This document shows, one piece after another, positions 32,158 to 34,785 of a DNA stretch of 34,967 nucleotides. The DNA comes from an uncultured SAR86 cluster bacterium (lineage in GTDB: Bacteria > Pseudomonadota > Gammaproteobacteria > Magnimaribacterales > Magnimaribacteraceae). Below the pieces are notes generated by a model that was not told the DNA's origin, did not search any database, and saw only the letters and a list, made by a program, of their open reading frames with translations. The position numbers were made by a program, and so were the translations under genes. The DNA lies in assembly GCA_902628375.1 (NCBI GenBank), contig CACOMS010000012.1, positions 1 through 34,967 on the forward strand, given 5' to 3'. Within the stretch, counting starts at the first letter, position 1. Each line of letters begins with the position of its first letter.

Positions 32158-32179
32158 TATTTAGGGGGAGAGTTTGATT

Positions 32180-33568
32180 ATGAAGAAAAAACTATTTTTA
32201 TATTCTTTTTTTATTTTTTCTTTAAGTCCTTTTTTTATAAATGCTAAAGAAAATATACCTTTTCAGTCAACTTATAATCCTCAAAAGAGCAGTTCAGTCC
32301 TAATACAGCAAGGAAGACTTCTTACGGCAACTGAAGAAGATTCATTTATTGGCGATATCTTAATTTCAAATAACGTAATTGTAGAGATAGGAAAAAGTAT
32401 AAATCCTCCATTAGGAACAAAGGTAATAGATGCAAGAGGGAAATGGGTAACCCCTGGAATAATAGATATTCATTCTCATATGGGAGTGTATCCAGCACCA
32501 AGTTTAAATTCTAGTTCTGATGGCAATGAATCTACAAGTCCCACTACTGCCCATGTATGGGCTGAGCATTCAGTATGGACACAAGATCCTCAAATGCCTC
32601 TAGCTTTAAAAGGAGGGATAACGACTTATCATGTGTTACCTGGATCAGCAAATTTAATTGGGGGAAGAGGAATAACTCTTAAGAATGTTTGGTCACGAAC
32701 TGTTCAAGGGATGAAATTTCCTAATGCTCCCTATACTTTAAAGATGGCGTGTGGAGAAAATCCAAAAAGAGTTTATGGTGGAAGGAGGATGGAGCCTTCA
32801 ACAAGAATGGGAAATGTAGCTGGTTATAGAAAAGCTTGGATAAAGGCTGAATCATATTTAAGTAGACAACAGCAATATGAGTCTAAGTCTGAACAAGCTA
32901 AACAAATGGGTTATAAACCAACTCGAGATCTCGAAATGGAAACTTTAGCTGGCGTACTCAAAGGAGAGATCTTGATTCAAAATCACTGCTATAGGGGAGA
33001 AGAAATGGCAGTGATGTTAGATTTAGCTAAAGAATTTGATTACAAGGTGACTACTTTCCATCATGCCATTGAGGCCTATAAAGTAGCAGATATTTTGGCT
33101 GAAAATAATGTCTGCGCTGCTATTTGGGCAGATTGGTGGGGATTTAAACATGAAGCGTTTGATATGGTTTGGGAAAATGCAGCCATTATTCATAATGCTA
33201 ATGGCGAAAAAGGATGCGCTATCATCCATTCTGATGATGCTGTTGGCATTCAACGTCTGAATCAAGAAGCTGCTAAAGCAATGGCAGCAGGAAATAGAGT
33301 AGGCCTAAATATATCTGAGGGAGATGCCATTAAATGGATTACATTAAATGCAGCGAAAGGCCTTGGTATTGATAAATGGACTGGGTCTTTAGAAAAGGGA
33401 AAAATGGCTGATGTAGTTATATGGGATGGAAATCCCTTTAGTGTATATACAAAAACTGAGAAAGTATTTATAGATGGGATACTAAAGTATAGTTCAGAGG
33501 ATATTAGTTTACCCAAGCCAACAGATTTTGAATTAGGAATTATTAACCCTGAGGAGAATAGGCTATGA
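32180..33568 (+). CDS. Exported amidohydrolase-superfamily protein with complete metal-ligand set
   Basis: A 462-aa amidohydrolase of the imidazolonepropionase/dipeptidase-like branch. It has a signal peptide (MKKKLFLYSFFIFSLSPFFINA, cleavage near 22), so it acts in the periplasm or outside. The ligands of the TIM-barrel metal site are present: H98 and H100 in PGIIDIHSHMG, H269 in LIQNHCYRGEE, H294/H295 in TTFHHAIEAYK and D352/D353 in IIHSDDAVGIQ. LPGSANLIGGRG (153-164) and KMACGENPKRVYGG follow family usage. The C-terminal GSLEKGKMADVVIWDGNPF closes the small beta domain. I start at ATG 32180, nine bases after GGGGGAG; TTG 32174 is too close to it. It overlaps the next gene by four bases. 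The substrate is unknown. Confidence 0.9.
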   Translation: MKKKLFLYSFFIFSLSPFFINAKENIPFQSTYNPQKSSSVLIQQGRLLTATEEDSFIGDILISNNVIVEIGKSINPPLGTKVIDARGKWVTPGIIDIHSHMGVYPAPSLNSSSDGNESTSPTTAHVWAEHSVWTQDPQMPLALKGGITTYHVLPGSANLIGGRGITLKNVWSRTVQGMKFPNAPYTLKMACGENPKRVYGGRRMEPSTRMGNVAGYRKAWIKAESYLSRQQQYESKSEQAKQMGYKPTRDLEMETLAGVLKGEILIQNHCYRGEEMAVMLDLAKEFDYKVTTFHHAIEAYKVADILAENNVCAAIWADWWGFKHEAFDMVWENAAIIHNANGEKGCAIIHSDDAVGIQRLNQEAAKAMAAGNRVGLNISEGDAIKWITLNAAKGLGIDKWTGSLEKGKMADVVIWDGNPFSVYTKTEKVFIDGILKYSSEDISLPKPTDFELGIINPEENRL

Positions 33569-34785
33569 AAAATACTTTCTTTATAAGCAACCTATTTCTG
33601 CTTATTTTCTCTCTAAATCTATTTGCAGAAGATTTTTTAATAAAAAATGCAAAAATATTTACAGGAACGGATCAAGGTTTAATTAAGAATTCAGATATTC
33701 ATATTAAAGATGGAAGGGTCCAGGAGATTAAAAAAGAAATAGATATTAGTAATATCAAAGTAATTGATTTGAATGGGAAATTAATTACCTCTGGATTTAT
33801 ATCGCCTTTATCACAGTTAGGGTTAGTAGAAATTGGCCTTGAATCGAGAACCAGAAATGATTCATCAGATGTTTATTCAGCAGGATTTAGTGTTGCCAGT
33901 TCATTCAATCCTAAGTCAACTCTGATTCCTTACAATTTAACTGGAGGAATCACTCTTAGTTTATCTTCACCTAGCTCAGGAGGTTTATTTTCTGGTCTTT
34001 CTTCTGCTTTTTATTTATCAGGGAAATTAAAGAATAGCTTGCTAAAAAAAGATATCGCATTAATAGCTTCAATAAGAAGTGGGGAAGGTTCAAAGGCAGC
34101 TAGCTTCCTTCTTTTAGAAGATTTCCTTACTTATGCTCAAGATAGAAATGCTGAAAAAGATCTATCTATAATTCCTTTAAGCCAAGAGGATGGAAATATT
34201 TCTATTAGGGATCTGCGCGCAATAAAAAGAGTTGTTGATAAAGAGATACCTCTAGTAGTTAGGGTAGACAAATCCTCAGATATTTTAACCATATTGGATC
34301 TAGCTAAAAGAAAAGATATAGAACTAATAATAGCTGGTGCCTCAGAAGGGTGGATGGTTGCTAATGAGTTAGCTGACTCAGGCGTGCCAGTTATTTTAAC
34401 TCCTATAGATAATATACCTAGCTCCTTTGATAGCCTTGGTTCTAGGTTAGATAACGCCTCTATGCTTCATAAGGCTGGAGTTAAATTAATCATTAGCTCT
34501 CATGAAACTCACAATGCTTATCTGTCCAGACAGGGAGCAGGAATAGCAGTTTCTTATGGTCTGCCTTGGGAAGAAGCTATAAAAGCATTAACTATAAATA
34601 TTTCAGAATCTTTTAACCTAGACAAATTAGGAGCAATAAAACCTGGTTATAAAGCTGATTTGGTTGTCTGGGATGGAGACCCTCTAGAAGTAACTTCTTT
34701 CGTAGAGAGAGTTTTCATATCTGGAAAAGAAGTTCCTGTTGAGAATAGGTCTATGAGGCTTAGAGATAGGTATCTAGAGAATTAG
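33565..34785 (+). CDS. Exported amidohydrolase homologue lacking metal ligands (probable pseudoenzyme)
   Basis: This 406-aa protein has a signal peptide (cleavage near LFA-E, residue 21) and the overall amidohydrolase plan: N-terminal beta domain (IKNAKIFTGTDQGLIKNSD), barrel, and the closing AIKPGYKADLVVWDGDPLE. The first metal motif, usually PGxIDxHxHxG, reads SGFISPLSQLGL (76-87), so both histidines are lost (L82, Q84). The second histidine region reads AGASEGWM (257-264) and the catalytic-aspartate region SSHETHNA (311-318), without a clear Asp. STLIPYNLTGG and PSSFDSLGSRLDNA mark a subfamily I recall as the downstream partner of the preceding gene in several gammaproteobacteria. Coupled by ATGA, the two may form a complex. 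Confidence 0.87.
   Translation: MKNTFFISNLFLLIFSLNLFAEDFLIKNAKIFTGTDQGLIKNSDIHIKDGRVQEIKKEIDISNIKVIDLNGKLITSGFISPLSQLGLVEIGLESRTRNDSSDVYSAGFSVASSFNPKSTLIPYNLTGGITLSLSSPSSGGLFSGLSSAFYLSGKLKNSLLKKDIALIASIRSGEGSKAASFLLLEDFLTYAQDRNAEKDLSIIPLSQEDGNISIRDLRAIKRVVDKEIPLVVRVDKSSDILTILDLAKRKDIELIIAGASEGWMVANELADSGVPVILTPIDNIPSSFDSLGSRLDNASMLHKAGVKLIISSHETHNAYLSRQGAGIAVSYGLPWEEAIKALTINISESFNLDKLGAIKPGYKADLVVWDGDPLEVTSFVERVFISGKEVPVENRSMRLRDRYLEN

Follow-up and report, generated by a model that had tools for sequence, protein, structure and literature searches.

The window, by which we mean the whole 34,967-nucleotide stretch of DNA analyzed, comes from a marine SAR86 bacterium and carries two overlapping genes whose products, P1 and P2, probably make up one exported heteromeric hydrolase in which one subunit is catalytic and the other is not. 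In this enzyme, of which P2 is probably a required half, P1 would carry the metal center and perform hydrolysis. P2 would be a duplicated subunit, stripped of its metal ligands and substrate loops at an early stage, that now serves only as the obligate structural or substrate-gating partner in the P1-P2 heteromer. Translational coupling would deliver the two proteins in matched amounts, and in other lineages the halves form one fused chain. We infer direct contact between P1 and P2, the need of P1 for P2, export, and the substrate from the patterns described below. The pair is laid out as follows:

32163..32170, + strand: ribosome-binding site of P1, AGGGGGAG, strong and purine-rich, read directly
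32180..33568, + strand: P1, putative catalytic subunit, a predicted exported 3ooq-type amidohydrolase of 462 aa (Pfam, PDB 3ooq_A match, intact ligands)
33565..33568, + strand: ATGA overlap of the P2 start codon with the P1 stop codon, read directly
33565..34785, + strand: P2, ligand-less homologue and predicted exported non-catalytic subunit of 406 aa (AlphaFold2 model, 3ooq match)

Read from the sequence, P1 runs from ATG 32180 to the TGA at 33566-33568 and P2 from ATG 33565 to a stop at 34785, which bears out both the coordinates and the four-base overlap given in an earlier note on this DNA. The open reading frame list starts P1 two codons upstream, at TTG 32174; this start was set aside because ATG 32180 is better placed behind AGGGGGAG. 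Both N-termini are hydrophobic and resemble export signals in their sequence features, in keeping with the signal peptides that the note had assigned to both products. A lipobox-like cysteine near the N-terminus is found in about 40% of P1 proteins versus about 6% of P2 proteins (loci L097-L176), and the window P1 has none; P1 may anchor the pair to the membrane in some species.

Both proteins belong to the amidohydrolase superfamily. P1 exceeds the Pfam gathering scores of PF01979 (Amidohydro_1; 48 bits versus a cut-off of 25) and PF07969 (Amidohydro_3; 51.2 versus 29.7), and P2 scores 58 bits with PF01979 and adopts the barrel fold in its AlphaFold2 model. PDB 3ooq is by far the best structural match of either protein: 3ooq_A heads the list for P1 (E 1.9e-63), and phmmer pairs P2 with 3ooq at E 1.8e-35, the next chain following at 1.4e-8. 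P2 is thus a member of the same subgroup as P1 and no remote relative. The 3ooq protein, a structural-genomics amidohydrolase from Thermotoga maritima with no assigned function, is the nearest known system to both. Every ligand position of P1 recurs in it, as do the SDGNE, PGSAN, and GENPKR motifs, and these features together with the closest structure place P1 in the 3ooq-type subgroup; P2 has the same closest structure and, in the joint alignment described below, lacks the PGSAN and GENPKR substrate-loop motifs. All metal ligands of 3ooq are missing from P2, and the 3ooq chain bears no sign of an export signal, unlike the export-signal-like N-termini of P1 and P2. Xaa-Pro and arginine carboxypeptidase-type amidohydrolases (3feq, 3mkv, 3be7, and 3mtw) share their fold with the P2 model and rank next behind 3ooq (Z about 25-26), but they are clearly more distant, and P1 has conserved loops of its own. 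Two specific family assignments were rejected: imidazolonepropionase (HutI, TIGR01224), for which P1 and P2 score 49.5 and 30 bits against a curated equivalog cut-off of 298, and Xaa-Pro dipeptidase (NF051886), with 47.7 and 41.5 bits against a curated cut-off of 500. Among the NCBIfam models listed, there is none whose curated cut-off either protein attains.

What sets the two halves apart is the metal center, which was compared in a profile alignment of 16 P1 and 73 P2 proteins and in a joint alignment that adds four partnerless (solo) relatives and eight fused active domains. The relevant positions are these:

32465..32479, + strand: P1 metal motif D96-x-H98-x-H100, kept in 16/16 P1, 3-4/4 solo relatives, and 8/8 fused active domains
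32741..32743, + strand: P1 K188, invariant lysine, kept in P1, solo relatives, and fused active domains; mostly hydrophobic in P2
32984..32986, + strand: P1 H269, metal-ligand position, kept in 16/16 P1, 4/4 solo, and 8/8 fused; mostly K/S/R/T in P2
33062..33064, + strand: P1 H295, metal-ligand position, kept in 16/16 P1, 4/4 solo, and 8/8 fused; Gly in 67/73 P2
33233..33235, + strand: P1 D352, catalytic/metal aspartate, kept in 16/16 P1, 4/4 solo, and 8/8 fused; variable in P2, Asp in 3/73
33808..33816, + strand: P2 L82-x-Q84, replacing the HxH ligands (profile alignment)

The ligand set of the window P1 is complete (D96-x-H98-x-H100, H269, H294/H295, and D352), and the HxH motif, two further histidines, and aspartate that had been noticed in it are confirmed as H98, H100, H269, H295, and D352; K188 is a possible bridging lysine. 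At the same columns the window P2 reads S80/L82/Q84, R233, A257/G258, and H313 in the two alignments, so the earlier reading of L82/Q84, with the other ligands lacking a clear equivalent, also stands. Histidine is rare at these columns among the 73 P2 proteins (6/73 at column 82, 4/73 at column 84, 3/73 at the H269 column, and 0/73 at the H295 column). As judged from the alignments, ligand loss is a family trait that extends beyond the window protein, and it is more than chance, since P1 and P2 are both closest to 3ooq and the ligand columns are unconserved in all these P2 sequences. The joint alignment further indicates that the substrate-loop motifs NE116-117, PGSAN, and GENPKR as well as K323, all conserved in P1, are gone from P2, which retains structural glycines and prolines, W369, and D365. 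A genome of the same phylum as the window (G191; L073:6084-8701, + strand) carries a second tandem pair, which is very divergent. The second protein of this pair reads DAHST at the HxH site, with one histidine kept, and possibly represents an early or halfway stage in ligand loss.

The 73 P2 proteins conserve a set of residues of their own (E89, D98, N115, R177, D239, E261, H316, N317, R395, R402, and Y403), and the polar ones from E89 to N317 could serve a different chemistry. P2 might then be catalytically active in its own right, through another mechanism that is possibly metal-independent or through a metal site that has moved, to which H316-N317 and E89 would lend themselves. We hold this to be improbable, as every metal-ligand column is lost with no new multi-ligand set conserved, and the fused N-terminal domains on the same side of the tree likewise lack ligands. 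Just one histidine is widely shared among the P2 proteins, H316 (present in 62/73 and missing in 11/73), which makes a relocated metal center unlikely. No conserved multi-histidine or His/Asp set emerged across the 73 aligned P2 proteins; metal ligands supplied from other positions, which the earlier note had named in advance as evidence against its reading, were not found.

The P2 gene is under purifying selection, with dN/dS values between close relatives of 0.03-0.16 for P2 and 0.02-0.09 for P1. P2 is confidently predicted to fold as the same barrel (AlphaFold2, pLDDT 92.9, pTM 0.91), the model matching 3ooq with Z 45.3 and an rmsd of 2.6 Å over 361 residues, followed by other structures at Z about 26. 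A frameshift, a pseudogene, or an assembly artifact was rejected as an explanation for P2 in view of its intact frame, low dN/dS, and presence in many genomes. The proposal that the second protein is a conserved pseudoenzyme with an intact frame gains support from the low dN/dS and from the ligand loss shared by the 73 P2 sequences.

P1 and P2 are an obligate pair in every set examined. In a survey of 274 gammaproteobacterial genomes (P1 threshold E <= 1e-50), the P1-carrying and the P2-carrying genomes are the identical 14. In a wide scan of about 85,000 species genomes, the best 80 loci examined all hold both genes in the order P1-P2, directly adjacent in 79 and with the same 4-base overlap in 48. 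In the one exception, a Steroidobacteraceae MAG (L164:5785-13295), the two genes lie 5.5 kb apart, with order and strand kept and a P-type ATPase and other genes in between, so that matched translation is not essential everywhere. Paired loci elsewhere comprise 35/35 of the first regions and 25/25 Alteromonadaceae, alphaproteobacterial genomes agree, and in the SAR86 order all 26 sampled genomes without P2 also lack P1 (26/26). Three candidate cases of P2 alone (G036, G536, and G1109) were dismissed as contig-edge or scoring-limit effects, and the only apparent case otherwise left (G979) is just a contig-edge fragment. Genomes regularly carrying P2 without P1, which had likewise been singled out beforehand as evidence against the pairing, were not found among these joint presences and absences.

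The earlier statement that tandem pairs occur in other gammaproteobacteria is correct in that the pair is conserved there; it was too narrow, as the pair also occurs in Alphaproteobacteria, Acidobacteriota, and Gemmatimonadota and, in fused form, in Bacteroidota. In nine deep tandem pairs from Acidobacteriota (L235-L243), DxHxH is present in the first gene and absent from the second. Three separate P1-P2 pairs in one Caulobacter segnis genome (G521, contigs C5 and C7) suggest different substrates. No conserved operon partner beyond the pair was seen outside SAR86-specific synteny.

Operon coupling and co-occurrence would also fit two proteins of the same pathway that make no contact. The heteromer is favored because active and ligand-less domains are naturally fused in frame, and these fusions lend support to the suggestion that P2 forms a heteromer with its active partner. 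In-frame P1-P2 chains are found in two acidobacterial genomes (L232 and L233) and two Gemmatimonadota genomes (G1018 and G1109). In the acidobacterial reading frames, one signal-like sequence precedes a P1 domain containing VDTHSHMG, which a proline-rich linker joins to a P2 domain that reads FIEPHTSLG or FIEAGTHLG, and the Gemmatimonadota chains share this layout. Other arrangements are active-pseudo (L228-L231), pseudo-active-pseudo (L227, a single open reading frame of 1419 codons), and pseudo-active chains (L076 and L179-L185). Chains of the last type are about 1035 aa long, with the ligand-less domain at the N-terminus and the active one at the C-terminus; such a chain, followed by a separate ligand-less gene, stands in for the pair in some Alteromonadaceae and others. 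Structure prediction for fused L076 (1034 aa, 10-row alignment) gave a pTM of 0.42, too low to show how the domains pack. Hymenobacter (Bacteroidota) has the same modules, split in annotation. On a plasmid of Hymenobacter volaticus (L206:3988-8188, + strand), annotation breaks the fused pseudo-active gene into several shorter amidohydrolase pieces, likely reflecting a frameshift or a broken gene. An acidobacterial genome (G776; L234:2670-10370, + strand) carries an array of alternating active and ligand-less domains that ends in a chain of two domains, the first of them reading EAHSH.

These fusions bear on two further explanations. P2 might act on its own in the periplasm as a binding or regulatory protein, capturing the same substrate or product within the pathway of P1 but forming no stable complex with it, as stable operon linkage alone would allow. 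Its faster evolution (mean identity 38% versus 59% for P1) and the residues that the joint alignment places in common between P2 and P1 (D98/D114, R236/R272, and E261/E298) point the same way. We nevertheless consider this unlikely: the in-frame P1-P2 chains from two phyla, together with the three other fused arrangements, favor a physical unit, and the substrate-signature loops PGSAN and GENPKR are not retained in P2, which argues against its binding the substrate of P1. Still less probable, in our estimate, is a dedicated periplasmic chaperone that folds P1 or loads its metal and stays outside the mature enzyme. Strict co-occurrence and 1:1 gene order would suit such a helper, but a single chain joined through a linker implies that P2 stays with the enzyme, and a conserved metal-binding set is not seen in P2. 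Common descent already predicts a high mirror-tree correlation between P1 and P2 (r 0.85; 0.45 for deep pairs), so we do not take it as evidence of contact.

As for the substrate of the proposed heteromer, gene neighbors in a few loci hint at a peptide or peptide-like amide. They include POT peptide transporters (L071 and L211), SNF symporters in Kangiella-like loci, and peptidases of families M14, M16, or S9 (L173, L175, L140, and L164).

In the tree, a 99/99 branch parts all active domains (P1, fused active domains, and the solo 3ooq type) from all ligand-less ones. This split fits one ancient loss of the ligands, which is likely, short of proven, given an unrooted tree and the long branches of the ligand-less domains. 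Partnerless copies occur in Nonomuraea, Acetoanaerobium, and Monoglobus, and the solo copies seen all come from monoderm bacteria; we therefore propose that a single-gene enzyme was duplicated and that one copy turned into a subunit in diderms. The ancestor would have been a 3ooq-like enzyme, presumably a homo-oligomer. After duplication, one copy would have retained the chemistry, and the other would have retained the fold and gained a conserved surface of its own, exemplified by the C-terminal R-x3-L-x2-RY motif, to become a dedicated non-catalytic subunit in export-competent diderm lineages.

Pairs of an enzyme and a pseudoenzyme paralogue are a known kind; this one is, as far as our search of the open-access literature tells, new for the 3ooq-type subgroup. 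No description of the P1-P2 pair was found in open-access papers, and neither amidohydrolases nor family M38 come up in a 2024 review of inactive homologues of metallopeptidases. In public annotation both genes are simply labeled "amidohydrolase", so genome and metagenome counts of enzymes probably include the inactive half by mistake. Given P2-profile matches in 97/199 Acidobacteriota and 173/200 Gemmatimonadota genomes sampled (the profile also detects P1), the paired arrangement may represent a major uncharacterized hydrolase that soil and marine bacteria export. If P1 is assayed by itself, failed or misleading results are to be expected, and the natural single-chain fusions provide a ready test of the heteromer.

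The closest parallels lie outside this subgroup and are analogies to P1-P2 that imply no shared membership. M16 metallopeptidases combine a zinc-bearing and a homologous zinc-less half, encoded by neighboring genes or in one chain, and have homodimeric relatives; examples are SPH2681/SPH2682, TTHA1264/TTHA1265, the mitochondrial processing peptidase, and fused M16A/M16C, and the inactive half has been shown to be needed (PMC12731061, PMC11266112). P1 and P2 resemble them as active and ligand-less homologues with obligate co-occurrence and fusion in some lineages, but the fold and family are unrelated, and the need for the inactive half, shown in M16, is one we infer for P1-P2. More tentatively, the ligand-less half might complete or gate the catalytic active site across the interface, which would make the functional unit an exported amidohydrolase built from two halves, in some cases with an additional ligand-less domain; such an enzyme would be convergent with M16 peptidases and widespread among Acidobacteriota and Gemmatimonadota. 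The pseudo-dihydroorotase of Pseudomonas ATCase is an inactive chain of the amidohydrolase superfamily that is required for the activity of its partner (PMC7053772). That chain is cytoplasmic and its partner, ATCase, is an unrelated enzyme, whereas the partner of P2 would be its own active paralogue, and P1 and P2 both look exported.
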